DNA of 64,000 nt, taken from assembly GCF_029537735.1 (NCBI RefSeq), contig NZ_JARPUQ010000002.1:198608-262607 (forward strand), written 5' to 3'. Positions 1,077-14,264 of this stretch are shown piece after piece (position 1 is the stretch's first letter; each line of letters opens with the position of its first letter). The notes under the pieces are model-generated. The model was not told the DNA's origin, searched no databases, and saw only the letters and a program-made list of their open reading frames with translations. Source of the stretch: Robiginitalea aestuariiviva. Its GTDB lineage: Bacteria; Bacteroidota; Bacteroidia; Flavobacteriales; Flavobacteriaceae. Made by a program: the position numbers and the translations under genes.

Positions 1077-1304
1077 ATGATACGATTTATTGCCAGTGCT
1101 ATGCTGTTGGGTTGTTTTGCCGGCAGCGGAAGCGCCAACCCCGTGCCGTATTCGGAAGGGTGTTCCGTAACCGCATCGGGTTGGGTCCATTCTGAAGAAC
1201 TTGGTTCCTTCCAGGCCACCATCACGGTTACCGGCCCCTGTGATGCCTCCCTGGCGGACAAGATGCGCCAGGCCATTGCCGATTTGCGGGCCGGATTCCA
1301 ATAA
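1077..1304 (+). CDS. Small secreted two-cysteine protein (75 aa), cassette 1 peptide A
   Basis: I do not recognise a named family. Residues 1-20 form a clear Sec signal peptide ending SGSA, leaving a mature protein of about 55 residues with two cysteines (C29 and C55) that could form a disulfide outside the cytoplasm. The C-terminal pattern VTGPCD...IADLRAGFQ matches the end of the next gene product (VSGIPCD...KAQLMAGIK), and the first-cysteine contexts EGCSV and EDCTI also correspond, so the two are diverged paralogues. It is the first gene of a run with an 18-base gap, a 4-base overlap and a 23-base overlap leading into a GLPGLI protein and a large outer-membrane protein. A role as the secreted ligand or substrate of those partners is inference. 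Confidence 0.7.
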   Translation: MIRFIASAMLLGCFAGSGSANPVPYSEGCSVTASGWVHSEELGSFQATITVTGPCDASLADKMRQAIADLRAGFQ

Positions 1305-1322
1305 ACCTTTAACACCACTGTT

Positions 1323-1697
1323 ATGAAACCATTCCTTACATCTATTTTGATTTTTGTCCTGACCCTCCCTGCCCTTGCCGTGGCGCCTGCCCCTTCAGCA
1401 ACTGGCCCGTACCAGCTATGGGTTGAAGGGAGCAGCGGGGCAGAGACCCATACGCAGTATGTGCATGCGGAAACGGCGGAAGCCCTGGACGCTGTAGATT
1501 TTTCCGCTATGGAAACCTGGGCTTTCTCCCGGGCCGACGGTCCCGAAGACTGTACCATTTCCATTACCGTAAAGGTTCGATTTGGCTTTGACTCCAATTT
1601 TGTGGAGGCCTCGGGTACCGTTTCGGGCATCCCCTGCGACGGGGTGGTGGAAGCCATCAAGGCCCTGAAGGCCCAACTCATGGCCGGGATCAAATGA
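1323..1697 (+). CDS. Small secreted two-cysteine protein (124 aa), cassette 1 peptide B
   Basis: Unrecognised family. A signal peptide spans about residues 1-21 (ends ALAVA). The mature part has two cysteines, C77 and C105, 28 residues apart (26 apart in the upstream paralogue). Its last ~50 residues align with the mature 75-residue protein: EDCTI with EGCSV, and VSGIPCD with VTGPCD, followed by an amphipathic helix-like tail. Residues 22-70 are an N-terminal extension missing from peptide A. The stop codon overlaps the ATG of the GLPGLI gene (ATGA), so translation may be coupled. A strong terminator-like hairpin starts only 15 bases after the stop, as expected for a gene expressed above its downstream partners. 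Confidence 0.75.
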   Translation: MKPFLTSILIFVLTLPALAVAPAPSATGPYQLWVEGSSGAETHTQYVHAETAEALDAVDFSAMETWAFSRADGPEDCTISITVKVRFGFDSNFVEASGTVSGIPCDGVVEAIKALKAQLMAGIK

Positions 1698-2458
1698 GCA
1701 GGATAATTCGCGCGGCGGCCTTTGTAGGCCGCCGCTTTTTTGTTTTGGCATGGCTCCTGCCCCATGGGGGGATCATGGCCCAGGAGGCCCTTTCAAGCTG
1801 GGAGGCCCGGTATGACCTGCGTCTGGATATGGGCATGGCCCGGCGCTATGAAGCGCGCCTTCAGGGTACGCCTCAGGGCGGCCTTTTTTCCTGGGGCCGG
1901 CTACTGGAATCGGAGGCTGCACAGAGCGACTATGAATTTAACCTGACATTGGGTGCCTCAGACTCCCTGGGGAGTTATACGTATACGGACCTGAAGGCAG
2001 GTACCATGCGTTCCCGTATCCCCTTCCAGGGAGGCAGGAGTTACGAGGTATGCGAACCTGTTCCGGAAATTGCCTGGCACCTGTCTGATAGTCTGCAAAC
2101 CATAGGGCCCTTTACCTGCCTGCGCGCTACGGGTGCCTTCCGGGGCCGGGAATACGAGGTGTGGTATACCCCGGAACTCCCGGTTCAGCTGGGGCCCTGG
2201 AAATTACATGGCCTGCCTGGCCTTGCGGTATGGATCCGGGATGCCGAAGGGGCGGTGGAAATAACCCTGAAATCCTGGATCCCCAGGGCCGCCCCGCTGG
2301 TAAAACCCAGGGAACCGGAAGACTGCATGACTCTGGAGGCATATACCGCCCTGCAAGCCTCGTGGGCGCAGGAACTAATGCGCCGCATGCAGGCGAAATT
2401 CCCCAGGGGCGCTCAAATTTCTATCGGGAAACAGGATGCCCTGGAGCGCTTTGAATAA
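1694..2458 (+). CDS. GLPGLI family protein, cassette 1
   Basis: Secreted protein of 254 aa in the GLPGLI family (TIGR01200), known almost only from Bacteroidota and of unknown function. The name-giving motif appears as GLPGL at residues 173-177, preceded by VWYTPELPVQLGP from residue 156. The N-terminus carries arginines and then a hydrophobic run ending IMA-QE, a plausible signal peptide. The ATG overlaps the stop of the upstream small protein, and the 3' end overlaps the start of the outer-membrane gene by 23 bases. A terminator-like hairpin is embedded in codons 7-16, so either the frame starts at 1694 and depends on readthrough, or the true start is downstream. The low-G+C island at 9.5-13.6 kb carries a second family member. 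Confidence 0.85.
   Translation: MSRIIRAAAFVGRRFFVLAWLLPHGGIMAQEALSSWEARYDLRLDMGMARRYEARLQGTPQGGLFSWGRLLESEAAQSDYEFNLTLGASDSLGSYTYTDLKAGTMRSRIPFQGGRSYEVCEPVPEIAWHLSDSLQTIGPFTCLRATGAFRGREYEVWYTPELPVQLGPWKLHGLPGLAVWIRDAEGAVEITLKSWIPRAAPLVKPREPEDCMTLEAYTALQASWAQELMRRMQAKFPRGAQISIGKQDALERFE
1712..1741 (+). terminator. Terminator-like hairpin inside the start of the GLPGLI gene
   Basis: GCGGCGGCCT (1712-1721), loop TTGT, AGGCCGCCGC (1726-1735), then TTTTTT and GTTTT. This is a perfect 10-bp stem with a U-tract, the layout of an intrinsic terminator. It lies 15 bases after the stop of peptide B and within codons 7-16 of the following GLPGLI frame. Partial termination here would give abundant peptide mRNA and low readthrough into the GLPGLI and outer-membrane genes; that effect is inferred from the structure. 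Confidence 0.75.
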
Positions 2459-5084
2459 ACGTTTAATCCTTGGGGTCCTGCTCTGGGGAGCTTATCTGCA
2501 GGGACAGGAATTAGAGGGCCGGCTCCGGGATTCCCTGGGGCAGCCCGTGGCCCAGGCCCGGGTCTGGCTCCATCCGGCTGAAGGCATGCCGGCAAGGGGC
2601 GCGGCCTTCAGCGATTCCCTGGGTCGGTTCCGGATCCCGGGCCTTAGGTCGGAACACCTCCGGATAGGGGTGGCCGCCATGGGGTTCCGGGCCCTGGATA
2701 CCCTGGTTACACGGGAAGCGGGTAAGCCCTGGCCCCTATTGCAATTCACCCTGCAGGCATCCCCCTTTTTGCTTCAGGAGGTAGTGGTTCGGGCCGAAAA
2801 AGCCATGCGCGTGGGGCGGGATACCGTTGAATTCCTGGTGGATCCCTATACGCGGGGTACGGAACAGGTAGCAGAAGATATCCTAAGGCGTTTGCCCGGG
2901 GTGGAGGTAAGCCCGGATGGGGAAATCCGGGTTCGGGGAAAACCTATTGGCCGGGTCCTGGTGGAAGGGGACGACCTCACTGCCCGCCGGTATCGCATCC
3001 TGACCCGCAACCTGGATGCCGGAGCCATCGAAAAGGTGCAGGTCCTGCAGGATTACCAGGAAAACCGTGCGCTCAGGGGGCTCAAATCCTCCCGGGAGGT
3101 GGCCCTGAACCTGGTATTGCGGGATGGCGTAAAGGGCCGGTGGGCCGGGCGGGGGACCCCCGGGCTGGGTAGCGGGTCCCGATACGACGTCCGCATCAAC
3201 CTCATGTACCTGAAACGAGCGGTGAAGCTTTATGCCCTGGGCCATACCAATACTGTAGGGGAAGACCCGGCTGGCGACCTTTTTGAGCTGCTGCACCCGG
3301 AAGTCCTGGAGCCCGAATTCCCGCCGGGGGAAGGGCAGGCTAGCGGTAGCGGTTTTACCCCCCGTCTGGATCTGTTACCCCTGGAGCGCCGGGCCTACGT
3401 CCAAAACCGCGCCGGGATGGGGTCGGTCAATACGGTCTGGCGCCCCGGTTCGGGTTTCCGGGTACAGGCCCAGGTACTGGGGCTGCGCGAAACCGAGCGG
3501 GTAAAATGGTCCCGGCAGGAAACCCTGCAGGGGGCAGATTCCCTTTTTCGAATTGCCGAAGTCCGACTGCAACAGTTGCGGGAACAATTCGTTTCCGGGG
3601 CCTGGGAGGTGGCCTGGGAGCCGGATACCACCCACAGGTTGCTTTGGAAAACACGCTGGAGCCTAGGGCGTTTCCGGCAGGCGGACTCCCTGGTTTTTAA
3701 CGGGCAGGGAAATATACAGGACCGACAGTTATCTGTTGGACGGTGGGAATCTTCCCTGGACTACACCCACCGTTGGGGTGCCGCCACGGCCCTGCGCCTG
3801 GCGGGGAGGTGGATAGCTGAAAAACGCCCGGAAACCCTGGATTTTGACGGGTACCTCCTTAGCGGTTTCTGGGGGCCCGGGCAGCCCGGGTGGGAAACCC
3901 GGCAGCGCTTTTTGGCCCGCCTGCAGTATACCGGGCTGCGGGCCGCCCTGATCCATAAACAGGGGGCGCATACCCTGGAGGCACAGGCCTACTGGAGTAT
4001 TTCACAAAGTGCGATGGAGAACCAGTGGGGGTTGGGTATTCCCGGGGGAGCCCCGGAGGGGCCTTTCGGGAAGGCGGCCGAACAGCGGCGACGGATGGGG
4101 TTACGGCTGGAGTGGACCCTGGATAAACCCGCCTTTCGCACCGCCCTTTCCCTGGAAGGCCTGGGCGCCTGGGCCAACTATTCGGAAAACGGGACCCGGA
4201 GATTCCGCGCCCTGGCCCTGGTGCCCGGGGCCAGCATCCGCTGGCAACCCGCCCCCCGGCATACCCTGCAGGCCCGGTATACTTTTGACTTCCGGGAAAG
4301 TCATTTTGCAGAACAATGGAGCACTCCGCTGCTGAGCGGGTACCGAAGCATACGTACGGGCCTGGGCCGCTATTTCCCCTTCCGGTCGCACCGGCTTACC
4401 GCGGGGTATACCTTCGGTGACTGGGGGGATCCCACCCGTTTGTTTGCCTTTGCCCTTTGGCGCCTTGAACCCGGGTTTCCGGGAATGGACTGGTTGCAGC
4501 GCCCAGGTTTTATTGCGTATTCCCTCCGGCCGATGTCGCAAAGGGAAATGATCACCCTGAACCTGAACCTGGACCATTACCTGGAGGCGCTTCAATGCAA
4601 CCTGAAATGGAAGGCTGCCTATACCCGGCAGGACTATACGGCCGGATTGGAAGGCACCCTGAATCCGGTGCAACACCAGAATCTGAGCCTGGGCCCGGAG
4701 CTGCGTTCGGCCTTTGGGAAAGGGCTGGAATTCCATGGCGGGTTAACCATTTCCAGGCTGTGGTCCGGGTTTGGCGGGCGCAACCGAACGAGCGCTTTGC
4801 GCGGGTTCCTGGACCTGGAGGCGGGGCGGGGCCCCGGGTGGTCTGCCCGAATCCGGAACGAATATTTCGACTATCCCGACGCGGCTTCCCACCCGCTATG
4901 GTTGTCTTCCGCAACCGTCCAACACACCCCTGAAAAAGGGCGGGTGCACTATCGGTTGCAGGTCCAGAACCTCTGGAATGCCTCCTTTTTTGGGCTGCGC
5001 ACCCTGCAGGATACCGGATACCAGGATTCGGGGTATGCGCTCTCCGGCCGCTGGGTTTTGCTGCAGGTTTCAGTGCGGTTGTAA
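2436..5084 (+). CDS. CarboxypepD_reg-like/TonB-dependent-receptor-like outer-membrane protein, cassette 1
   Basis: Large (882 aa) outer-membrane beta-barrel protein. After a signal peptide (LILGVLLWGAYLQGQ) comes a carboxypeptidase-regulatory-like beta-sandwich (about residues 25-110: DSLGQPVAQARVWL... SLGRFRIPGL), then a plug-like segment with DILRRLPGVEVSPDGEIRVRG and a VLVEGDDL stretch, then a long barrel rich in alternating aromatic and polar residues. It resembles the non-SusC TonB-receptor-like proteins found beside GLPGLI genes. No TonB box is evident. The ATG at 2436 overlaps the GLPGLI gene; a TTG at 2451 (LNKRLILGV) is an alternative start with a more conventional signal peptide. 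The product of 9675-12359 is homologous along the N-terminal third (LPGVEVSPDG versus LPGIEVDREG). Confidence 0.85.
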   Translation: MPWSALNKRLILGVLLWGAYLQGQELEGRLRDSLGQPVAQARVWLHPAEGMPARGAAFSDSLGRFRIPGLRSEHLRIGVAAMGFRALDTLVTREAGKPWPLLQFTLQASPFLLQEVVVRAEKAMRVGRDTVEFLVDPYTRGTEQVAEDILRRLPGVEVSPDGEIRVRGKPIGRVLVEGDDLTARRYRILTRNLDAGAIEKVQVLQDYQENRALRGLKSSREVALNLVLRDGVKGRWAGRGTPGLGSGSRYDVRINLMYLKRAVKLYALGHTNTVGEDPAGDLFELLHPEVLEPEFPPGEGQASGSGFTPRLDLLPLERRAYVQNRAGMGSVNTVWRPGSGFRVQAQVLGLRETERVKWSRQETLQGADSLFRIAEVRLQQLREQFVSGAWEVAWEPDTTHRLLWKTRWSLGRFRQADSLVFNGQGNIQDRQLSVGRWESSLDYTHRWGAATALRLAGRWIAEKRPETLDFDGYLLSGFWGPGQPGWETRQRFLARLQYTGLRAALIHKQGAHTLEAQAYWSISQSAMENQWGLGIPGGAPEGPFGKAAEQRRRMGLRLEWTLDKPAFRTALSLEGLGAWANYSENGTRRFRALALVPGASIRWQPAPRHTLQARYTFDFRESHFAEQWSTPLLSGYRSIRTGLGRYFPFRSHRLTAGYTFGDWGDPTRLFAFALWRLEPGFPGMDWLQRPGFIAYSLRPMSQREMITLNLNLDHYLEALQCNLKWKAAYTRQDYTAGLEGTLNPVQHQNLSLGPELRSAFGKGLEFHGGLTISRLWSGFGGRNRTSALRGFLDLEAGRGPGWSARIRNEYFDYPDAASHPLWLSSATVQHTPEKGRVHYRLQVQNLWNASFFGLRTLQDTGYQDSGYALSGRWVLLQVSVRL

Positions 5085-5088
5085 GAAC

Positions 5089-6240
5089 TCAGGGCCGCTC
5101 TACCTCCCGGATGTATACGGCATCCGGGACCAGCGGCAGGGAGACGATGTCTAGAACGGAACCTTCAAAATCCGTGATCACTACCCCTCCTTCGGGGGTG
5201 CCGTCCCCCTTCACGTAGGCAATGGCAATGAGTCCGGTTTCCAGGTCGGCGTCGAATTGCCCGAACAGGGGGCGGCTGCCGGTCTGTTGTTCCATACGCG
5301 CCTGTAAAAGGGGCAGGTAAGGTTCCCCGCCCGCGGCAAATGCCCCGGCCTTGAGGTTGTAGATGGCCGGCTGTGCAAAAAAGAGGCTGGGTTGCTGGTA
5401 GATATAAGACACCAGGAGGTCTTCCCCTGAAAATCGGGTCCGGAAAAGACCTTCAGCCTGTGCCGGAAAGTTGGGGATGGGGCCGGATTCCCCAAATTGG
5501 AGCAGGCCGGTGTGGAAGGCCAGGTAGGTGCCGTCTGTCCGGAACATGAGGAGCTCGCTATCCCTTAGGCAGGCGGAGGTCCATTCCGGGCCGGGGTTTA
5601 CCTGGGTAAGGACTGAGGCCGTGGGCAGGTCCACCAGGGCCAGTACAGGTTCGTCCGTGCCCGCCCGGCGGTAATACAGGATCAGTAGGTCCTGTTGGAT
5701 CAGGGCATCCAACACCCCTTGCGGCCCGGCCTCGGCAAGCAGCAGATCCGTACAGGACCCGGAAGCCGGGTGGTGAATCCGCAGGCGGGTTTCCGGGGTA
5801 CTGCCCTGTGGAAAAGCGGTGTAGGGCAGCACCAGGTATTCCAGGCCGCCGTACAGCCCCCGTATCTCCTTTGGCGTGTCCGTTTCCGATGCAAACCCGC
5901 AAAGGTCCTCAATGGCCGTAATGTTGCCGGAATTCAGGTCTTTCAGGTAGGCCCGGGATTTTTGTCCTTCCCAGGTATAATAGGCCAGGGTGTTTTCAAA
6001 AACCTCCCGCCGGGCAAACTGAAAAAAAGACAGGCCCATTTCTTCGCTCAGGTTTTGGATGAGCGGGGGGTCGCTAGAACGATTGCGGTCCATCTGGATT
6101 TGCGGCCCTGTGGCGCCGGCCAGGGCCGTAAACCGGACCATGGGCGGGGCAGCTTCGGACGGTATAGCTTCTTCCCGGGAACAGGTGAAGCAGGTGAGGG
6201 CCGCCAACACCAGGGGAAGGCAACGGTTAAAAAGTTTCAT
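5089..6240 (-). CDS. Putative lipoprotein, possible beta-propeller
   Basis: The 383-residue product starts with a lipoprotein signal peptide (lipobox region LTCFTC-S), so it is probably anchored in the envelope. I do not recognise the family. The body is a run of short strands with repeated 'value, unit, text' patterns (for example YYTWEGQKSRAYLKDL, LLMFRTDGTYLAFHTGLLQF, GLIAIAYVKGDG), compatible with a WD40-like or six-bladed propeller as in other Bacteroidota surface lipoproteins. It converges with the cassette 1 outer-membrane gene, with stops four bases apart, so it is transcribed independently. Confidence 0.7.
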   Translation of the reverse strand: MKLFNRCLPLVLAALTCFTCSREEAIPSEAAPPMVRFTALAGATGPQIQMDRNRSSDPPLIQNLSEEMGLSFFQFARREVFENTLAYYTWEGQKSRAYLKDLNSGNITAIEDLCGFASETDTPKEIRGLYGGLEYLVLPYTAFPQGSTPETRLRIHHPASGSCTDLLLAEAGPQGVLDALIQQDLLILYYRRAGTDEPVLALVDLPTASVLTQVNPGPEWTSACLRDSELLMFRTDGTYLAFHTGLLQFGESGPIPNFPAQAEGLFRTRFSGEDLLVSYIYQQPSLFFAQPAIYNLKAGAFAAGGEPYLPLLQARMEQQTGSRPLFGQFDADLETGLIAIAYVKGDGTPEGGVVITDFEGSVLDIVSLPLVPDAVYIREVERP

Positions 6241-6325
6241 AGCAGCTTTTTAGAGTACCTAAAATAGGGAAAAGAACAGAGATGCGAACCCGGGCGGCCT
6301 GGGCGGTGTTCCCTATCCCAAAATT

Positions 6326-6335
6326 TAGTACTTTG
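6326..6335 (+). promoter_or_regulatory. Probable promoter element TAGTACTTTG
   Basis: TAGTACTTTG resembles the Bacteroidota -7 box and recurs exactly before the OmpA-family gene (31957-31966). It lies about 130 bases before the ATG at 6465, so in-frame starts further upstream are unlikely. Confidence 0.45.
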
Positions 6336-6464
6336 AAAGACAAACCCTACAAAGCGCTTCGCAAAAATTCCCCTCATATGGGTATGGCCCGGCGCGCCAC
6401 GGGCCTGCATTTTGCGTACGGACCCCCGAAAGGCGGGGACTCCCTTGATTTTAAACGTGCCACA

Positions 6465-7145
6465 ATGAACAATGACTTACTTGTTTCCTACCTGTCCCTC
6501 CGGAAATCCATCGGGTTTATTGCCTTGGGAATGCCCGTATTCCTGGTGATTGGCTCCATTTGGATAGGGGACTGTTCCCAGATTCAGAGTTCCATTTCCG
6601 ATTACTACCACACCGTCATGCGGGATGGACTGGTAGGCACCATTTGCGCCATTTCCTTCTTTCTTTTCGCCTATCGGGGCTATGATGTTAAGGACTTTTG
6701 GGCTACCCGGGCGGCGGCTGTCCTGGCGCTTTTTGTCGCCTTCTTTCCCACCATTTATACCGATGAGATCTATCCCCCATGTAATGTGGTACGCCCCATA
6801 GAAAACCCCCTGGTCAATGCCATTCATTTCAGCAGTGCCCTGCTGTTTTTTCTGGTACTGGCCTACATCTCGTTGTTTTTATTTACCAAAACGGACCATC
6901 CGCAGGCTATGGGCCAACGTAAAAAGCATCGCAACCGCGTCTACAAGACCTGCGGGTGGGTTATGTTGGCATGCCTGGCCCTGCTGGCCCTGTATTTTGC
7001 CTGGTTGCGGCACCGCTTTCCGGGCCTGGCTGCCTATGATCCCGTATTCTGGCTGGAATCCCTGGCCCTGTGGGCCTTTGGGATCAGCTGGCTGATTAAG
7101 GGGGAGATCTTTATGAAGGACCTGCCGCAGCCTCCTGCACCCTGA
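6465..7145 (+). CDS. Integral membrane protein of unknown function (226 aa)
   Basis: Six or so hydrophobic segments are visible (for example IGFIALGMPVFLVIG, LVGTICAISFFLFAY, AAAVLALFVAFFP, FSSALLFFLVLAYISLFLF, GWVMLACLALLALYFAW, LESLALWAFGISWLI), so this is a polytopic inner-membrane protein. A loop contains ISDYYHTVMRDG and PPCNVV. It resembles DUF998-like membrane proteins, but the family is not certain. The start at 6465 (MNNDLLVSY) is chosen because the frame extending to 6282 would translate through a probable promoter and an uncharged leader. It lies eight bases before the dipeptidase-like gene, so the two may be co-transcribed. Confidence 0.75.
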   Translation: MNNDLLVSYLSLRKSIGFIALGMPVFLVIGSIWIGDCSQIQSSISDYYHTVMRDGLVGTICAISFFLFAYRGYDVKDFWATRAAAVLALFVAFFPTIYTDEIYPPCNVVRPIENPLVNAIHFSSALLFFLVLAYISLFLFTKTDHPQAMGQRKKHRNRVYKTCGWVMLACLALLALYFAWLRHRFPGLAAYDPVFWLESLALWAFGISWLIKGEIFMKDLPQPPAP

Positions 7146-7153
7146 TCCCCTGA

Positions 7154-8860
7154 ATGATGAAAAAGCCCATTGCCGACCTGCATTGCCACCCCAGTTTAAA
7201 GCCGCACCTGAATGCCGAAATCGGGAGTATCTGGGAATACCGGGAAAACCCGACGGTGGATGAGGTCTTTCGTTTGGTCAGCTTCCGCAAACTCGCAATC
7301 CGCGGCCTGGCAGCCAAAATGGCCCTGAAAACCCAGTCCAACCTGGACAGCTGCCTGCAGGGCGGAAACCGCCTGCTCTTTTGCAGTATTTATCCCTTCG
7401 AACGGGAATTTATGCGGCCGGACCGCCCCTTTAAACGGGCTTCCCTGGTGGTGAAATGGGCGCTGCAGGCCCTCTTGCGAAAACGGTATAAACGCCATAT
7501 AGACAGCAAGCTGATCCGTTTGATTACCGGGATTTCCCCATCGGCTGCCATCCGCTTCCTGGATCAGATCCACACCCCTGGCGGGCGGGTGGATTATATG
7601 CAGGGGTACCTGGATGAATACAACTACCTGCTTGCCGCCCAGGGAGAGCGCCCCGGAGCGCCACAGGACGGGACACGACCGGCCTTCCGCCTCCTCTCCG
7701 ATGCCAGCCAACTCCCTCAGGAATCCGATGAAAACACCCTGTCCGGGATTATTACCGCAGAAGGGGCGCACGCTTTCGGGGATTATGCCCTGGAATTCCT
7801 GCGAAAGGAGATGGCTTTCGGCGACCTGCCCGAAGCGGAGCAGGCGCGGTTGCGGGCTTCTTTCCGAAGAAACCTGGCTATTGTAAAAGATGCGGACCAA
7901 ACGGCTTTCCCGCCGTTCTTTGTGACCTTCTCCCACCATTTCCACAATTTCCTTTCCGGGCATTCCCAAAGTTTTGCAGGCCTCTTTTCGAAGGTGTTCA
8001 ACCAGGAGCCCGGGATGGACGCCGGCCTGTCCGCCCTGGGGCGGGAAGTCCTGGAACTCCTGCTGGAGCGCGGCCCCCGCAGTGCCCGTATCCTAATAGA
8101 TACCAAGCATATGTCTCCCCGGGTGCGCCAGGAATATTACGCCCTGGTGCGGCAGCGACGGCAACAGGGGGATGCCATCCCCATCGTGTCCAGCCACTCC
8201 GCCGTGAACGCCCTGGATACCCTGGAAACGGCTATGCGCAATAACAATGACAGCCGCACGGAGCGGCGATCCTACGTGAGCAAATTCGAGATTAACCTCA
8301 CCGATGAAGATATCCGGGAAACCTTTGACTCGGGCGGCATCATTGGTATTTGCATGCACGACGGGCGCATGCCGGGCAGACAGTTCAAAAAGAAACTGCG
8401 GGCGGTACGGGCCCATCCGGAAAAGGCCAAACGCCTGTACAGCCAAATGTTCCTGACTAATATTTTCCATATCGTCAAGGTGAACGCCAGGCACCTGCAG
8501 GCCCTCCACCCCGGGGGTGCGGGGGAGGCTGTAATGCAGACGGCTTGGGATACCGTATCCCTGGGCTCGGACAACGACGGGATCGTAGACCCCTTTAATA
8601 CGTATGAAACCGCGGCAACCCTGACCGATTTCCGCCTTAAAATCATCGAGGCCATGCAGACCCAGGACAGGCCTTATATGAAAGACTTCCGCATCCTTTC
8701 CCTGCCGGAGGAAAAACCCATGGAACCGGAAGAACTCCAGGCCCTGATGATGGGCCTGACCCCGGAAGCCATTGCCGACCGCGTCTTTTACGACAATGCC
8801 CGGATCTTTTTGGAGCGCTACTTTACGGAGGCGTATCGGTTTTCGGGGGCGGTGGTATAA
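7154..8860 (+). CDS. Peptidase M19 (renal dipeptidase)-like metal hydrolase
   Basis: A 568-residue amidohydrolase-fold protein with metal-ligand motifs typical of membrane-dipeptidase (M19) relatives: DLHCHP at residues 8-13, a bridging glutamate in TAEGAHAF near residue 200, SHHFHNFL in mid-protein, SHSAVN near 346 and GSDNDGIVDP near 471. It would hydrolyse a small amide or dipeptide, but the substrate is unknown. It is clearly longer than classical M19 enzymes (around 350-400 aa), with an inserted helical region at residues 60-190. No signal peptide is present, so a cytoplasmic location is likely. An alternative start is the second Met, one codon on. Confidence 0.8.
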   Translation: MMKKPIADLHCHPSLKPHLNAEIGSIWEYRENPTVDEVFRLVSFRKLAIRGLAAKMALKTQSNLDSCLQGGNRLLFCSIYPFEREFMRPDRPFKRASLVVKWALQALLRKRYKRHIDSKLIRLITGISPSAAIRFLDQIHTPGGRVDYMQGYLDEYNYLLAAQGERPGAPQDGTRPAFRLLSDASQLPQESDENTLSGIITAEGAHAFGDYALEFLRKEMAFGDLPEAEQARLRASFRRNLAIVKDADQTAFPPFFVTFSHHFHNFLSGHSQSFAGLFSKVFNQEPGMDAGLSALGREVLELLLERGPRSARILIDTKHMSPRVRQEYYALVRQRRQQGDAIPIVSSHSAVNALDTLETAMRNNNDSRTERRSYVSKFEINLTDEDIRETFDSGGIIGICMHDGRMPGRQFKKKLRAVRAHPEKAKRLYSQMFLTNIFHIVKVNARHLQALHPGGAGEAVMQTAWDTVSLGSDNDGIVDPFNTYETAATLTDFRLKIIEAMQTQDRPYMKDFRILSLPEEKPMEPEELQALMMGLTPEAIADRVFYDNARIFLERYFTEAYRFSGAVV

Positions 8861-8891
8861 TCCGCCTTGCCATGCGTATCTTGCAGACCCT

Positions 8892-9590
8892 ATGGAACCA
8901 CCTAAGAGTACCCTCGCCGACCACATTATCGCCTTTAACCGCAACCTGGAATTCACTGGGCGGTTACCCAGGGGGATTGGGGTGCTGAACCCTTTTCAGG
9001 ACAACCCGGAAATCCTGCCGATTTCGGAGGCTTTTTACCGGAAATACTATTCGGATAACCGGCCCCGCCGCCTGATCATGGGGATTAACCCGGGGCGGCT
9101 GGGGGCCGGGGCCACGGGCATCCCGTTTACAGATACCAAAAGGCTTACGGAAGTCTGCGGCCTGCCCGGGCCGGAATTTCAGACCCACGAGCCGTCCTCC
9201 GTCTTTGTCTACCGGCTTATTGAGGCCTATGGCGGCCCGGAGAAGTTTTTCGGGAAATACTATATCAACTCCGTTTCCCCCCTGGGCTTTGTTAAACAAA
9301 GTAAAAGTGGGAAATGGGTGAATTACAACTACTACGACAGCCCGGAACTCTTCCGGGCGATTACCCCCTTTGCCCATGCCAAACTCCGGGAACAGCTGGG
9401 CTGGGGCCTGGAAACCGGCACCTGTTTTTCCCTGGGAAAAAAGAATGCCAAATACCTGGAACTACTCAATGAAGAGGGGGACTACTTTGACCAGATTGTG
9501 CCCCTGGACCACCCCAGGTATATTGTGCAGTACAAAGCCCGGCAGATGGATGCCTATGTGGATACCTTCCTGGAGGCGCTGGGGGAGTAA
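8892..9590 (+). CDS. SMUG2-type uracil-DNA glycosylase family protein
   Basis: A 232-residue protein of the uracil-DNA glycosylase superfamily (SMUG2/DUF4918 type common in Bacteroidota), expected to excise damaged bases from DNA. The active-site loop is GINPGRLGAGATGIPFTD (from residue 64), and the C-terminal DNA-minor-groove loop is PLDHPRY (204-210). The start at 8892 (MEPPKSTLADH) is preferred over an upstream in-frame ATG that lies within the M19 gene. The last 96 bases, including the stop, belong to a 130-bp sequence repeated perfectly at 13459-13588. The gene is intact but sits exactly at the left edge of an AT-rich island, the arrangement expected when an element integrates into a gene's 3' end and supplies a replacement end. 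Confidence 0.85.
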   Translation: MEPPKSTLADHIIAFNRNLEFTGRLPRGIGVLNPFQDNPEILPISEAFYRKYYSDNRPRRLIMGINPGRLGAGATGIPFTDTKRLTEVCGLPGPEFQTHEPSSVFVYRLIEAYGGPEKFFGKYYINSVSPLGFVKQSKSGKWVNYNYYDSPELFRAITPFAHAKLREQLGWGLETGTCFSLGKKNAKYLELLNEEGDYFDQIVPLDHPRYIVQYKARQMDAYVDTFLEALGE

Positions 9591-9642
9591 GGGCACTGTT
9601 GCGCGGGCGTTCGACTCCCGGAGGTGGAGCCGACAATAGGAG
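9495..9642 (+). repeat. Left direct repeat flanking the AT-rich island
   Basis: 9495-9624 is identical to 13459-13588 (130 bases). The next 18 bases match at 14 positions, and all four differences are transitions. The copy covers the end of the glycosylase gene and 34 bases beyond its stop. To its right the sequence turns AT-rich at once. Confidence 0.95.
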
Positions 9643-9674
9643 TGTAAGTACCCCTTAAATTGATTTTATATATT

Positions 9675-12359
9675 TCAGAATTTATATGAAAATAACAACA
9701 TAACAATTCTTGGCATAATTGCCGTACTTTGATCTTTAATAAGAAAATCACTAAAGGTATTCTTATTAATTGACTGCGCATCAAACAGGTTGAATGCTTT
9801 TATTTCAATACCGAATGGACTATTCTCCTTTTTATAAAAAATAGAAGCATTTGCTAATTCAAATCTATTAGTTAAACCTGCTGTCTGATTTTGGTAGTTA
9901 TAACTTGATATTTCGAATTTGAGATCAAAGCTTGATAGAAAATGATATTCAGTAGAAAAGAAAAATTCATTATTGAGAAAGCTATTTTTATTAAAATTGC
10001 TCAAATATTGTGTTGGCGCATATTCGTATGCAAAAGTAAAATTTGGCCAGTTATCAAAAAGAGTTTCAATTTGTCCTCTCAGGGTAAGGGACCTCGAAAT
10101 ATTTTTTGTGGTTCGATTATTAATAATTTGAAAAAACTCTCTATGACTGCCCCTGGACCGAATTCCTAGCTTAATTGGCTTGATAGTCTTAGTTACACTC
10201 AATCGACCTGAGTATTGATCCTCAGGCATATCGAACATAACTAGAGTAGTGAACTGATCAATCCCTTCTAATTCAGTTGCAGTTTTGATTCCTTGGGTTT
10301 TTTTGTTGTAGCCCAAATTGGCATTAATAGTGTAACCTCTAAAGAGGCTAAACTTATTGTAGGCTATAGAAAATTCATGATAGCGAGCGTTTGTTAGTAT
10401 TTGGTTCCCTCGGAATACTGTATTGAAACCTTTGAGTAAAAAGTTGTTGGTTAAGTATTCATGTCGAGGAAATCTTACTCTAGTCGCATACTTAAATTGC
10501 AATTTTTCACTTTTATTTAACTCTGCCTCTATTCCCAACTGAGGCAGCAAATAAGAAGTGTCATTAGAATATCCATTTTCGGGCTGTTGATTTTTCCACC
10601 AGTACTTATGATGAAAAACACCTGATTTTATCGTGAAAATGTCAAGAAGGAGTTTATACTCAATTCCAACAATGAAATCGTTTAAGGCGTAATTGCTTTT
10701 ATTGCCAAACCCAAAATTAGAAAAGTTATTGATTTCCCCATTTGTGAGGACTTGCTCCTCTTGCGAGGAGAAATGCTCTGACATCAGACTGTAACCAACC
10801 GATGAATAAATGTGGTTGTAATTATTTAAAACCCAGTAATCTTTGATTAGCATATCGAATGCTAGATTCTGCGTTTCTAAAGTCTGTCTTACATCATAAA
10901 TCAGATCCTGTTCAAGGGGTATCAAATTATTCAGATAAGGTTCATCAGAAAGCCAAGAATTATTGGGTTCATTTTCCGCATATTCCAACGAAACTTCCGA
11001 ACTCAAGGTATGGTTTCTGTTGAATTTCCTGCTGTATTCCACATTATTTTTGATATTGATTGCCTCCAAATTGCCTTTCGTTCTGAAAACATTCGTACTA
11101 TCTGCTACTACACTATTCAATAGGCCAGTAATGTCATTTCGGGATAGTTTTGCAAAGGAATGGAAAGCGAAATCTTCGTTAAGGCTAGGTTGATATTCTA
11201 TCCCAAGCTTGCCGAGAATAAAGAAGTTGTTAAAAAATTCAGAACGAGTTCTATTTTCTATGAGTTGTGAGTCATTATTGAGATATTCATTTATGGTTAC
11301 ATGCCTTTTAGTAATATTTCTGTCATCAAAAAAAACATAAGTGTTTAGTTGAGCTTTCGAACCCATTGACTGACGTAAATTCACGGCTGCAAATCTATCT
11401 GTACTTGAGTTAAAGTCCTTGTTGGAAAGAAATCTTGAGAAATCATCGTTCAGGAGTGCTGAATAACTTTTAATGTCTCTCATTAGTTTTCCAAACCCTC
11501 CTTCAAATTCGATATAGTCTTTCAATTCAAAGGAGTTGTTCCCGGTGTTATTGAAATCTCCAATGAAGTTAATGTTTGTTCTTGGGCTATAATAAAAAGT
11601 GCTTGAATGAGCACTATACCGTTCCTTATATCCTGCGCCACTTTCTAAATCGCCAAAAATGAATTTCTTTTTATTTTCTTTTAGCTTAATGTTTAACACT
11701 ATTTCTTCACTATCAACAAGGTTTTTGAGAAAAGCTATTCTATTATAATTATCCAGTACTTCAACTTTGTCAACCACATCTGCTGGAATGTTATTCACAG
11801 CTAATTTGCTATTTCCTGTAAAAAACAATTCATTCTCAACTAATACAGAGGTTATCCTTTTACCATTGATGTCAACGTTACCCTCACGATCCACTTCAAT
11901 TCCCGGCAACTGCTTTAGAACCTCCCTTAGTTTACGTTCCTCACCTGTAGTAAAGGCATCAACATTGTAGATTATTGTATCTTCTTTAATTTCTATTGGG
12001 ATTTTGTAATCAAGAACTACTTCATCAAGTTGATTGATGAATGGATGGAGAATAATATCCTTGGTTTGTGAATTATTTGCTATGATGAGAAGAGACAATT
12101 TCTTGTAGCCGATATAGCTAATATCAATGGTATATTGAATTCCTTTTCTTAGTCTTAAGGAATATGATCCATCTTCGGCACTAATAGAGAATTTGGTTTC
12201 TTCGTCTTGGGAATTAGGAAAGGCAAGAATATTGGCGTTAGGCAAAGGTGTTCCCACACTATCAAGAACTTTACCTTCATACACAACATGTTGAGAAATA
12301 GATAAATTAATACCGCATAAAAACGATAGAAATAAAAATTTGGTTTTAATTGAAAACAC
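9675..12359 (-). CDS. CarboxypepD_reg-like/TonB-like outer-membrane protein, island copy
   Basis: The 894-residue product begins with a signal peptide (FLFLSFLCGINLSIS), followed by a carboxypeptidase-regulatory-like domain (VYEGKVLDSVGTPLPNAN..., about residues 25-110). A plug-like region follows with REVLKQLPGIEVDREGNVDING and a VLVENELFF stretch, and then a long barrel ending MLLFSYKF. It is homologous to the 882-residue protein at 2436-5084 but strongly diverged and encoded in AT-rich codons, so it was not produced by recent local duplication. It lies 13 bases after the GLPGLI gene, in the same operon order as cassette 1. A role as receptor or exporter for the neighbouring peptide is inference. 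Confidence 0.85.
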   Translation of the reverse strand: MFSIKTKFLFLSFLCGINLSISQHVVYEGKVLDSVGTPLPNANILAFPNSQDEETKFSISAEDGSYSLRLRKGIQYTIDISYIGYKKLSLLIIANNSQTKDIILHPFINQLDEVVLDYKIPIEIKEDTIIYNVDAFTTGEERKLREVLKQLPGIEVDREGNVDINGKRITSVLVENELFFTGNSKLAVNNIPADVVDKVEVLDNYNRIAFLKNLVDSEEIVLNIKLKENKKKFIFGDLESGAGYKERYSAHSSTFYYSPRTNINFIGDFNNTGNNSFELKDYIEFEGGFGKLMRDIKSYSALLNDDFSRFLSNKDFNSSTDRFAAVNLRQSMGSKAQLNTYVFFDDRNITKRHVTINEYLNNDSQLIENRTRSEFFNNFFILGKLGIEYQPSLNEDFAFHSFAKLSRNDITGLLNSVVADSTNVFRTKGNLEAINIKNNVEYSRKFNRNHTLSSEVSLEYAENEPNNSWLSDEPYLNNLIPLEQDLIYDVRQTLETQNLAFDMLIKDYWVLNNYNHIYSSVGYSLMSEHFSSQEEQVLTNGEINNFSNFGFGNKSNYALNDFIVGIEYKLLLDIFTIKSGVFHHKYWWKNQQPENGYSNDTSYLLPQLGIEAELNKSEKLQFKYATRVRFPRHEYLTNNFLLKGFNTVFRGNQILTNARYHEFSIAYNKFSLFRGYTINANLGYNKKTQGIKTATELEGIDQFTTLVMFDMPEDQYSGRLSVTKTIKPIKLGIRSRGSHREFFQIINNRTTKNISRSLTLRGQIETLFDNWPNFTFAYEYAPTQYLSNFNKNSFLNNEFFFSTEYHFLSSFDLKFEISSYNYQNQTAGLTNRFELANASIFYKKENSPFGIEIKAFNLFDAQSINKNTFSDFLIKDQSTAIMPRIVMLLFSYKF

Positions 12360-12372
12360 AAAAAAGTTAACA

Positions 12373-13110
12373 CTAATTGTTGCGCGAAGGTAGCTTAGAT
12401 AGATAGTCTTTCCCCGACTTTTTATATTCTTCGGTCGACATAATATTTTTAGGATTCGGCCAAATCAGTTCCATTTCCTTGGTTTGATTTAATTTAATCT
12501 TTTGTGCAGTATAACTAATAATTGGTCCATGAAATTCCAGTACTAAACCGGGTAGCTGGCACACATAGTCACGAGGGCCTAGTTTTAAGGGGATTTCAGG
12601 ACAATACCAAGCAATTACTTCAATATCGCCGACAGGAGCAGAGACTATGTGATATGCTTTATACACTTTAAATTTCCCAATAAACTTGCTCTCGTTGGTT
12701 AAATTCCAAACTACATCATTCTTTTCGATTTCCGTAAATAGCGTTCTATTCTCAACGCTTCGCTCCAAAAGTTGGTAGCAAGAATCCAATTTGGTGTAGT
12801 AGGTTCCATTGTTTGCCAATATGGACGCTGCTCCATATGCCATTTCCTCTCCATCAAGAGAAATAGTCTTGATTTCATTAAAAATGGCAATGTCCTTGTT
12901 AAAAGTCAGCTTCATACTAATACTGGACATTCCTTTGGCAGCCAGATCATAGAATCCAATAGATTTATTTGGATTTGCCTTGTTTTGATCTACAAGCCGC
13001 TTATAAAAATTATCCATGTCGAGATTATACAATATTTCGCCATTATTCACTTGACAATAGCCGATTTGGAGAACTAATGAACATCCTAATAATATCAATA
13101 ACTGCTTCAT
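12373..13110 (-). CDS. GLPGLI family protein, island copy
   Basis: A secreted 245-residue protein with signal peptide MKQLLILLGCSLVLQIGYC. The diagnostic block reads AWYCPEIPLKLGP, then QLPGL at residues 185-189, matching VWYTPELPVQLGP and GLPGL in the product of 1694-2458. A downstream tail, ELIWPNPKNIMSTEEY, also resembles the cassette 1 protein (MTLEAY). The gene sits between a 15-bp-stem hairpin and the outer-membrane gene. The motif deviates from the consensus (Q for the first G), but the context leaves little doubt about the family. The family's biochemical function is unknown. Confidence 0.85.
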   Translation of the reverse strand: MKQLLILLGCSLVLQIGYCQVNNGEILYNLDMDNFYKRLVDQNKANPNKSIGFYDLAAKGMSSISMKLTFNKDIAIFNEIKTISLDGEEMAYGAASILANNGTYYTKLDSCYQLLERSVENRTLFTEIEKNDVVWNLTNESKFIGKFKVYKAYHIVSAPVGDIEVIAWYCPEIPLKLGPRDYVCQLPGLVLEFHGPIISYTAQKIKLNQTKEMELIWPNPKNIMSTEEYKKSGKDYLSKLPSRNN

Positions 13111-13124
13111 ACGTCATTACATTT

Positions 13125-13166
13125 TTCAACAGGAGTGCTTGAAGGACTGACAGCACTCCTGTTGAA
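13125..13166 (-). promoter_or_regulatory. Intercistronic hairpin between island peptide ORF and GLPGLI gene
   Basis: TTCAACAGGAGTGCT (13125-13139) and its perfect complement AGCACTCCTGTTGAA (13152-13166) flank a 12-base loop. This 15-bp stem lies in the 85 bases between the peptide stop and the GLPGLI start. No long U-tract follows on the minus strand (GAAAAATG), so it looks more like an mRNA-stabilising or processing hairpin than a full terminator. Cassette 1 has a terminator-like hairpin at the same junction. Confidence 0.75.
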
Positions 13167-13195
13167 TTTAAATCCACACTTTACTGTTGGTTCAT

Positions 13196-13402
13196 TCAAG
13201 CACTGTAATTATACTCCCAAATTTTTGCTGCAGTAAATCCATCTGACCCTCCATTGTCCCAGTAGTATTCTACCGCATCCCAGGCGTAGTCCTCGCAAGC
13301 GTTAAAAAACACCTTAATGGTTGAAGAAGCAGTCAGATTAGGCACAAAAAATAGGCTTAACACTACAACGGCAATAAATTTTTTAAAATAAAATAATTTT
13401 AA
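13196..13402 (-). CDS. Small secreted peptide ORF without a canonical start codon (island peptide)
   Basis: A 68-codon open frame ends at 13196, upstream of the GLPGLI gene. It encodes a lysine-containing hydrophobic leader (KKFIAVVVLSLFFVP...TASS), which is a convincing signal peptide, and then about 42 acidic, aromatic-rich residues with three Trp, six Tyr and one Cys (VFFNACEDYAW... ending EYNYSA). No in-frame ATG or usable GTG/TTG precedes the leader: the frame opens after a TAA with TTA AAA TTA. Only ATT (Ile10) or an internal GTG (Val14) could start it. It is therefore either read from a rare start or is a relic that has lost its ATG. Its place, upstream of the hairpin and GLPGLI gene, matches the two small proteins of cassette 1. 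Confidence 0.5.
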   Translation of the reverse strand, partial: LKLFYFKKFIAVVVLSLFFVPNLTASSTIKVFFNACEDYAWDAVEYYWDNGGSDGFTAAKIWEYNYSA

Positions 13403-13458: not shown

Positions 13459-13606
13459 ATTGTGCCCCTGGACCACCCCAGGTATATTGTGCAGTACAAA
13501 GCCCGGCAGATGGATGCCTATGTGGATACCTTCCTGGAGGCGCTGGGGGAGTAAGGGCACTGTTGCGCGGGCGTTCGACTCCCGGAGGCGAAACCGACGA
13601 TAGGAG
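13459..13606 (+). repeat. Right direct repeat: orphan 3' end of the DNA glycosylase gene
   Basis: 130 bases identical to 9495-9624, then a diverged 18-base tail (14 matches). It begins mid-codon in the glycosylase reading frame, directly after AT-rich island sequence, and has no gene upstream, so it is a non-coding fragment displaced by the insertion. What follows at 13607 is presumably the original downstream flank. Confidence 0.95.
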
Positions 13607-13857: not shown

Positions 13858-13867
13858 CGCTTGATTG

Positions 13868-14264
13868 TGGAGCCGGAGGGAGTCGAACCCTCGTCCAAAC
13901 AAGCAATAACCATGCTTTCTACATGCTTAGTTTTTGTTTGATTGTCGGCGCGTAACTGACCAAAAACCGCCTATTACGCGCTTAGCTTCTTTGTTTTGAT
14001 GCGGCTATCGAAGCCATAACCGCACGATGTTGACTTTTATGGTGCCCCCGGTAGGGTCGCCGTCAACAAGGGCTACCCGGGGACATTCAGCTTTCCCGCC
14101 TTGCGGGACTAGGCCAAGACTTACTGTAATTCAGTCTGTTAGGCAGCTAAAGCGTAGTTAGACTCGCCATTTAAAAAAGTTGAGTTATGAGATTAACGAG
14201 CTGTATCCCAGCGCTCGGCATGCTTACATAGCCATTGGTCTCGCTGTCAAAACCAGTCGGCCCC
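13868..14264 (-). ncRNA. ssrA: Transfer-messenger RNA (tmRNA)
   Basis: A 397-base tmRNA that rescues stalled ribosomes. The 5' end GGGGCCG pairs with CGGCTCC near the 3' end, including the G3-U70 wobble that marks an alanine acceptor, and the T-arm is GAGGG-TTCGACT-CCCTC. The mRNA-like part (14168 down to 14139) reads GGC GAG TCT AAC TAC GCT TTA GCT GCC TAA, giving the tag GESNYALAA after the tRNA-carried alanine. This is one substitution from the GENNYALAA tag I recall for flavobacteria. CCA is not fully encoded. It is transcribed divergently from the dehydrogenase-like gene at 14409. Confidence 0.95.

Follow-up and report, generated by a model that had tools for sequence, protein, structure and literature searches.

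The 64,000-nt stretch of Robiginitalea aestuariiviva DNA considered here (contig NZ_JARPUQ010000002.1, positions 198,608 to 262,607; from here: the window) carries two cassettes of the same gene order, in which small secreted peptides, or what looks like the remnant of one, precede a protein of the GLPGLI family and a large barrel protein resembling TonB-dependent transporters. We report that, among the relatives of the second cassette, the mature peptide and the GLPGLI protein turn over as a unit between a constant signal, often together with a constant leader, and a constant barrel. The arrangement is read here as a modular secreted-peptide cassette whose product would be an exported competition or kin-marking peptide with a cognate GLPGLI partner, a reading to which we assign a probability of roughly 0.45.

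The initial annotation of the window had described two loci of like order with homologous GLPGLI and barrel proteins, and the open reading frames (ORFs) were found at the positions it claimed. BLASTP bears out the homology between the loci for the GLPGLI proteins (1e-7 over 60 aa) and for the N-terminal 281 aa of the barrels (3e-29). From here, cassettes resembling cassette 1 or cassette 2 are called type 1 or type 2. These two loci hold the only TIGR01200 (GLPGLI) matches in the 3.2-Mb genome at E ≤ 0.001; a first search for the cassette-2 GLPGLI in a collection of genome contigs gave no match. A search of 299 genomes of the family returned 28 relatives of barrel 2 at 38–52% identity, while barrels of the cassette-1 type are far more divergent (21–32% in the loci compared, with one at 44% over a short stretch). 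Class-wide, some barrel match was present in 271 of 295 genomes in a search for the barrel only, in which peptides were not looked for. Within the bacterial family, GLPGLI matches occurred in 123 of 149 genomes. The type-2 sample consisted of the best 80 of 323 barrel-2 relatives from a profile scan and included Croceitalea, Allomuricauda, Winogradskyella, Lacinutrix, Mesonia, Leeuwenhoekiella and Tenacibaculum, among others.

Module exchange is visible at the DNA level. The comparison covered 52 of the 80 type-2 loci and yielded 65 locus pairs with similar barrels (0.80 or more) and an adjacent peptide, which are not independent of each other, several coming from one genus. DNA could be aligned across the barrel in 63 of these pairs, across the signal codons in 37 and across the leader in 20, whereas mature-peptide DNA and GLPGLI DNA were alignable in only five pairs each. 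Unrelated background pairs gave no alignable DNA (0/150) for any part except the signal codons (3/150). In example pairs from Mesonia (L257/L266), Winogradskyella (L224/L226 and L217/L218) and Gelidibacter (L246/L253), the alignable DNA breaks off 24–53 nt into the peptide gene on one side and, on the other, anywhere from the GLPGLI stop to about 120 nt inside the barrel gene. The leader of the type-2 locus L236 and that of a type-1-like peptide cassette in L237 share 89.5% identity.

The protein comparisons, based, like the similarities behind the locus pairs above and the comparison with G005 below, on normalised local scores with self-chosen thresholds of 0.35, 0.45 and 0.80, give the same picture. 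For 130 locus pairs whose barrels were 0.80 or more similar, the median similarity of the barrel-adjacent GLPGLI proteins was 0.21, and nine pairs reached 0.5 or more; when the best GLPGLI of the two arrays was taken, 23 pairs did so. Best foreign matches of at least 0.45 were found for 37 of the 94 type-2 peptides, reciprocal pairs included, and in all 37 cases the neighbouring GLPGLI protein ranked first or second of 90–93, with the barrel ranking anywhere up to 43. In partial Mantel tests, the peptide followed the GLPGLI protein given the barrel (0.26, with 0 of 2000 permutations as high) and did not follow the barrel given the GLPGLI protein (−0.08); the corresponding values for the 53 barrel-adjacent pairs alone were 0.18 and −0.11. 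Moreover, 11 of 37 arrays contain N-terminal stubs of the barrel gene ahead of the barrel itself, most of them directly after an upstream GLPGLI gene; displaced old modules with barrel stubs remain in some arrays. The initial annotation had pictured a peptide diversifying in front of a conserved machine. For type 2 this holds for the barrel, which is constant, but not for the GLPGLI protein, which changes with the peptide.

These swaps also bear on the idea that the peptide is a part of the barrel, such as a plug, lid or folding partner with the GLPGLI protein as its chaperone and the variation antigenic or phage-driven. The peptides of cassette 1 are conserved while the barrel evolves fast (42% identity between sister species), as such a subunit role would allow. 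Yet almost identical type-2 barrels carry unrelated modules, the barrels of L257 and L266 having a similarity of 0.97 and their GLPGLI proteins one of 0.12, so a fit to the barrel cannot fix the peptide sequence, and we regard this role as improbable.

Several observations weigh against the proposed exchange of cognate peptide-partner modules and against a competitive role. Peptide and GLPGLI genes are adjacent, so linkage alone could move both together, and the mosaic pairs are not independent, as stated above. No recognised peptide precedes 53 of 137 type-2 GLPGLI genes. The type-2 peptides have a median net charge of −7, with 97% of them negative, and such acidic peptides are unlike the common cationic antimicrobials. 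Purifying selection acts on the peptides of cassette 1, which are conserved at least as well as its GLPGLI protein and barrel, and the structural likeness of GLPGLI to LolA (Z ~8 for many chains) is near the level common for unrelated folds. As to the first point, linkage does not predict a sharp loss of homology over just the peptide and GLPGLI genes with both flanks alignable.

The association between peptides and GLPGLI genes is real, and not due to chance, in both barrel subfamilies. Using our own hydropathy/charge rule for signal peptides instead of SignalP, we found a signal-bearing, Cys-containing ORF before a GLPGLI gene a short way upstream of the barrel in 55 of the 80 type-2 loci. 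In the enrichment count, which used 137 of the 158 GLPGLI frames in these loci (frames less than 950 nt from the locus start were excluded), a secreted ORF with at least one Cys lay upstream of 84/137 GLPGLI genes compared with 14/347 other genes in the same loci; for at least two Cys the figures were 81/137 and 9/347. Among 30 type-1 loci, counted by eye and with the window's own locus included, 21 had a peptide of the 'Cys-beta-Cys-helix' or the four-Cys kind. The upstream enrichment suggested by the initial annotation therefore exists for types 1 and 2, but the expectation that most GLPGLI-barrel pairs have a peptide does not hold for canonical pairs. Among the 30 top TIGR01200 loci, a profile detected a different, longer and conserved secreted protein of about 118 aa, here called type 0, in nine and not in the other 21; our caller flagged 10 of the 59 GLPGLI frames in these loci, seven of them through the type-0 protein. 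Were the upstream ORFs without function and their position fortuitous, gaps such as those 21 loci and the 53 type-2 GLPGLI genes lacking a peptide would be expected, but the enrichment (84/137 against 14/347), ratios of nonsynonymous to synonymous substitution (dN/dS) of 0.22–0.30 and the conserved Cys pattern make this highly improbable. Separately, L157 (41–2373), L161 (5062–8943) and L272 (356–5936) contain arrays in which between three and seven GLPGLI genes, none with a recognised peptide, precede one barrel.

Cassette 1 lies on the forward strand. Its first two genes encode secreted two-Cys peptides of type 1, pepA (1077–1304, 75 aa, conserved in the genomes G005 and G004) and pepB (1323–1697, 124 aa). 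Both begin like a signal peptide, carry two Cys in the mature region and have homologues. They are followed by the GLPGLI gene (1694–2458; TIGR01200, 93.4 bits against a curated cut-off of 50; Porph_ging) and by an 882-aa TonB-dependent-transporter-like barrel with a CarboxypepD_reg N-terminal domain (2436–5084), the reading frames overlapping at 1694–1697 and 2436–2458. Although the initial annotation found the peptides not obviously alike, these two share a C-terminal core, also seen in their relatives, of a Cys, a beta-like stretch, a second Cys and a helix-like end. Cassettes of this type occur in six further genomes of the genus (G002, G003, G004, G005, G007 and G008), in each of which a small secreted Cys peptide precedes the GLPGLI gene, so that 7/7 type-1 pairs found there carry peptides; no upstream peptide accompanies the canonical GLPGLI-barrel pairs of G001, G004 and G008.

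Compared with the sister genome G005, pepA is 62%, pepB 56%, the GLPGLI protein 52% and the barrel 42% identical; the peptide is not the fast-evolving part, which counts against the picture of a diversifying peptide for this cassette. The dN/dS values of 0.22 (pepA), 0.30 (pepB), 0.19 (GLPGLI) and 0.35 (barrel) are rough because dS exceeds 1. Four of five neighbours of the cassette are 72–89% identical to their G005 counterparts and one (5089–6240) is 51% identical; a value of 48% for alanine dehydrogenase, obtained in a wrong frame, was set aside. The dehydrogenase-like gene upstream (18–821, our own label) is common to G004, G005 and G008. Cassette 1 is an old, conserved feature of its genus. 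The type-1 cassette of G003 (L081, 9005–12751) has 33% G+C, compared with 60% in the DNA 9–23 kb upstream, and a transposase-like frame, IS110-like by eye, lies upstream of it; this cassette is probably another horizontal arrival.

Cassette 2, in contrast, was acquired horizontally, as an insert of 3.8 kb flanked by direct repeats of 148 bp. It has 34% G+C and the remainder of the window 56%. On the reverse strand it comprises the 894-aa barrel (9675–12359; ORF, Pfam and predicted fold), the GLPGLI gene (12373–13110; TIGR01200, 99.6 bits, likewise above the cut-off), a long perfect hairpin (13125–13166) and the peptide frame (13196–13402). The repeat copies (9495–9642 and 13459–13606; 148 nt, 97%) consist of the 3′ end of a uracil-DNA-glycosylase-like gene (8856–9590; Pfam UDG) plus 52 nt, and in G005 this sequence is single-copy and the site has no insert. 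A transfer-messenger RNA gene (13865–14264, reverse strand; RF00023, 156 bits) lies beside the insertion site. Judged by barrel profile score and peptide, the nine further GLPGLI loci found in the genus all differ from the cassette-2 type. The secreted peptide ORF of the initial annotation is present as an open frame but looks decayed, since it has no ATG and only one Cys is left: all 97 called type-2 peptides begin with ATG (our start-codon caller gave a bonus to ATG over GTG and TTG), only 3/94 called type-2 peptides have one Cys, and in the alignment with the L204 relative the second Cys codon of the latter is a Ser codon here.

The frames read as genes between 9643 and 13458 are the barrel, the GLPGLI protein and the peptide remnant only, with no integrase among them; attC sites and distant integrases were not sought. 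L147, from another genus (G066), has the same architecture. There the peptide-GLPGLI-barrel cassette adjoins the 3′ end of a convergently oriented gene of 949 aa, of which the terminal 233 bp are repeated at 98% on the far side (6226–6458 and 10376–10608), and again no integrase lies in the insert. Cassette 2 and the L147 cassette, in different genera, both have their insertion point where a convergent host gene ends, and their repeats look like the outcome of single-crossover integration of a circular molecule. An integron or transposon origin of the flanking repeats was considered and dropped: long direct repeats are common to many loci, and among seven inspected at the letter level those of L128, L132 and L162 are repeated leaders ending in the first codons of the peptide gene, a duplicated host-gene 3′ end around one cassette being recognised only in the window and L147. 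In L143 (G304:C16, 3458–14346), six copies of a 130–150-bp element composed of a terminator-like hairpin and a leader were observed, with one GLPGLI-barrel module between element copies and one copy extending to the contig end. Type-1-like and type-2 cassettes stand side by side in L233, L237, L249 and L158, and are 8 kb apart in the window.

The type-2 peptides (n = 94) have a median mature length of 56 aa; 65 of them contain two Cys, and the median spacing from first to last Cys is 32. Within-locus paralogues (36 pairs) are 47% identical in the signal and 24% in the mature part, a contrast without parallel in the GLPGLI proteins of the same pairs (22% and 29%). Profiles of types 1 and 0 align (probability 93, E 3e-7), while the alignment of types 1 and 2 is confined to the signal. 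No peptide tested passed a Pfam cut-off or reached an NCBIfam cut-off, one of the two nearest Pfam matches being Ribosomal_S30AE for the L176 peptide (22.4 versus 23.7 bits), and a search of the Protein Data Bank (PDB) with the peptides gave only matches at E 0.07 or worse. The type-1 peptide at 378–638 of L158 scored 23.9 bits for DUF6520 (PF20130, cut-off 25.4), the other near match, which may hint at a connection with a further family of small secreted proteins.

A conserved signal before a variable mature part, and the position of the variable pair between constant flanks, would also fit signalling of the pherotype kind. The agr and comX loci contain co-diversifying signal/receptor pairs; by analogy, the peptide and the GLPGLI protein would form a co-diversifying signal and periplasmic receptor that mark kin. 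We consider this improbable: no sensor kinase or anti-sigma factor was found in the cassettes read, Pfam finds no signalling domain in GLPGLI, and the first neighbours scanned (10 of the 90 listed) include a single response regulator.

A strong hairpin had been noted between the last peptide gene and the GLPGLI gene of both cassettes. This position is correct for cassette 2 (13166–13125, z −3.1), but in cassette 1 the G+C-rich, terminator-like hairpin (1712–1735, followed by T6 up to 1741; forward strand; z −1.9) is located inside the first GLPGLI codons. Across loci the observation was substantiated. Peptide-GLPGLI junctions fold better than their shuffles (mean z −2.03, n = 94) when compared with random stretches (−0.26, n = 160), which include coding DNA, so that co-directional gaps are the better control: a local hairpin of −12 kcal/mol or below was present in 55 of 67 junctions whose gap spans 25 nt or more and in 31 of 91 co-directional control gaps (Fisher 1.3e-9). 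A T-run follows the hairpin in 18/55 junctions and 8/31 controls, and the stems inspected vary in sequence between loci. The hairpin may act as an mRNA 3′-end stabiliser or as a partial terminator that raises the peptide over the machine.

The 5′ leader of cassette 1 contains a DUF805b RNA element (RF02914; 1024–1058, forward strand; 44 bits, gathering threshold 35.6). The element directly precedes the first peptide gene of the window, and likewise in five of the six genus relatives searched, the sixth being the low-GC cassette of G003, and it is single-copy in its own genome at E ≤ 0.01. As a cassette-specific marker it was ruled out: it is found in 147 of 249 family genomes at E ≤ 0.001, with up to 25 copies in one, but in none of seven type-2 loci searched and above threshold in only two of 20 type-1 loci, covered up to 1.5 kb upstream, in one of which (L168) it stands behind the barrel and ahead of another type-1 peptide. 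By our own reading, DUF805b also precedes short double-glycine-leader-like peptides (L314, L318, L320 and L326), and this common leader gives a weak regulatory hint. Its usual position is 15–31 nt before genes for secreted proteins, type-1 peptides or double-glycine-leader-like peptides (window, L308, L310–L312, L314, L318, L320, L326 and L333). On visual inspection, the base preceding 'CCG' is often complementary to the final base of 'GTAGGN' (T/A, G/C or A/T), as if a second helix or pseudoknot were formed; the pairing is absent in L312, L316, L317 and L322.

Structure prediction places the GLPGLI protein of cassette 2 (72-sequence alignment, predicted local distance difference test (pLDDT) 93.2) closest to the N-terminal domains of PNGase F-II-type enzymes (7zgn, Z 14.8; PNGF-II 4r4z, Z 14.7), followed by the group of VioE, LolA (8.5) and RseB (8.7) at Z 8–9. 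The barrels gave CarboxypepD_reg domains only, with no match to Pfam Plug (PF07715) or TonB_dep_Rec (PF00593) at E ≤ 0.1, and phmmer found no sequence relative of the cassette-2 proteins in the PDB. The barrel model (39 sequences, pLDDT 85.8) resembles TonB-dependent transporters, namely a modelled FhuA entry (9a31, Z 19.9 over residues 130–883) and the solved structures of BtuB (3rgm, Z 17.9), FhuA (1qjq, Z 17.4) and Cir (Z 14.3); Foldseek gave E 7e-17, with a template-modelling score by query of only 0.3–0.4. The barrel is predicted to have a TonB-dependent-transporter-like fold, judged for the chain as a whole. Its consensus contains an 'LDEV' stretch before the plug-like region, which may be a TonB box.

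FhuA, BtuB and Cir are importers, and uptake is accordingly the direction that the best structural matches favour: the secreted peptide would be a bait or binder for a metal, haem or nutrient, the barrel would import the complex by TonB and the GLPGLI protein would receive it in the periplasm. Proteins with a LolA-like fold bind hydrophobic ligands, cations could be bound by acidic peptides with two Cys, and one of the ten scanned neighbours is a CNNM/CBS protein, presumably cation-related as these often are. The specificity of an outer-membrane receptor should, however, follow its ligand, whereas here peptide and GLPGLI vary and the barrel does not. Furthermore, the other nine neighbours are a CoA transferase, a peptidyl-tRNA hydrolase, Dus and similar genes, with no siderophore or haem genes among them. 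Uptake is thus unlikely in our view, if still worth weighing.

We favour competition or kin marking because a variable molecule with a co-varying private partner and a constant translocator resembles toxin-immunity modules. In this mechanism the peptide would be made in excess, the hairpin protecting or terminating the peptide part of the mRNA; it would cross the inner membrane by Sec and form a disulfide in the periplasm. There the cognate GLPGLI protein, LolA-like in its predicted fold, would hold it as a dedicated carrier, for self-protection or both, and the barrel would pass it out, as Oar does for PopC. Outside the cell the peptide would act against neighbours or mark them, and a need to change peptide and partner together would explain the exchange. 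More tentatively, at odds clearly short of even, the cassettes may represent a family-wide class of competition or kin-discrimination systems, in which a disulfide-stapled acidic peptide and a LolA-like GLPGLI protein are swappable, a constant barrel exports, the hairpin sets stoichiometry and modules are kept as an array.

GLPGLI proteins are common proteins without known function in this bacterial family, and the type-1 and type-2 peptide cassettes give them a directly testable role. The two families provide a large set of variable peptide/partner pairs, and natural swaps such as Mesonia L257/L266, with unrelated GLPGLI proteins beside barrels at 0.97 similarity, are ready-made experiments. 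An exporting barrel would add to Oar another example of outward protein transport through a TonB-transporter-like barrel. In the literature searched, with subscription journals outside its coverage, we found no function, peptide link or cassette exchange for GLPGLI (TIGR01200/PF09697 Porph_ging), no system combining peptide, TonB and LolA by title and, among the matches listed, no paper on the DUF805b RNA. One paper lists GLPGLI genes in a PhoP regulon.

With the double-glycine-leader bacteriocins and ribosomally synthesized and post-translationally modified peptides of Bacteroidota, cassette 1 has the DUF805b leader in common; the cassette peptides differ in having signal-peptide-like starts without a Gly-Gly leader, and no ORF for a modifying enzyme or an ATP-binding cassette exporter was found in the window's cassettes. 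LolA-type proteins carry lipoproteins through the periplasm and Bacteroidota have several, according to PMC11885536, in which 'GLPGLI' is not mentioned. The predicted fold of GLPGLI matches the LolA/LolB/RseB superfamily only modestly (LolA Z 8.5, RseB Z 8.7) and is closest to the PNGase F-II-type N-terminal domain (Z 14.7–14.8), and no lipoprotein role is known for GLPGLI. The TonB-dependent transporter Oar of Myxococcus is required for secretion of PopC and, like the cassette barrel, has a CarboxypepD_reg N-terminal extension and a transporter-like barrel (PMC6434023). The cassette cargo would differ in being a signal-bearing peptide encoded beside the barrel, with a GLPGLI partner, and Pfam Plug was not detected in the cassette barrel.

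A parallel in evolutionary terms is provided by the polymorphic toxins of the contact-dependent inhibition (CDI) and Rhs kinds. CDI/Rhs toxin-immunity modules combine a variable molecule, a co-varying private partner and a constant translocator. In both cases a variable module and its partner are exchanged beside constant flanks, and displaced modules persist with remnants of the constant part. The cassettes read differ in having no large delivery protein with a C-terminal toxin; what varies in them is a separate peptide, some 56 aa in length. The evolutionary logic of the arrangement resembles the exchange of polymorphic toxin-immunity modules.

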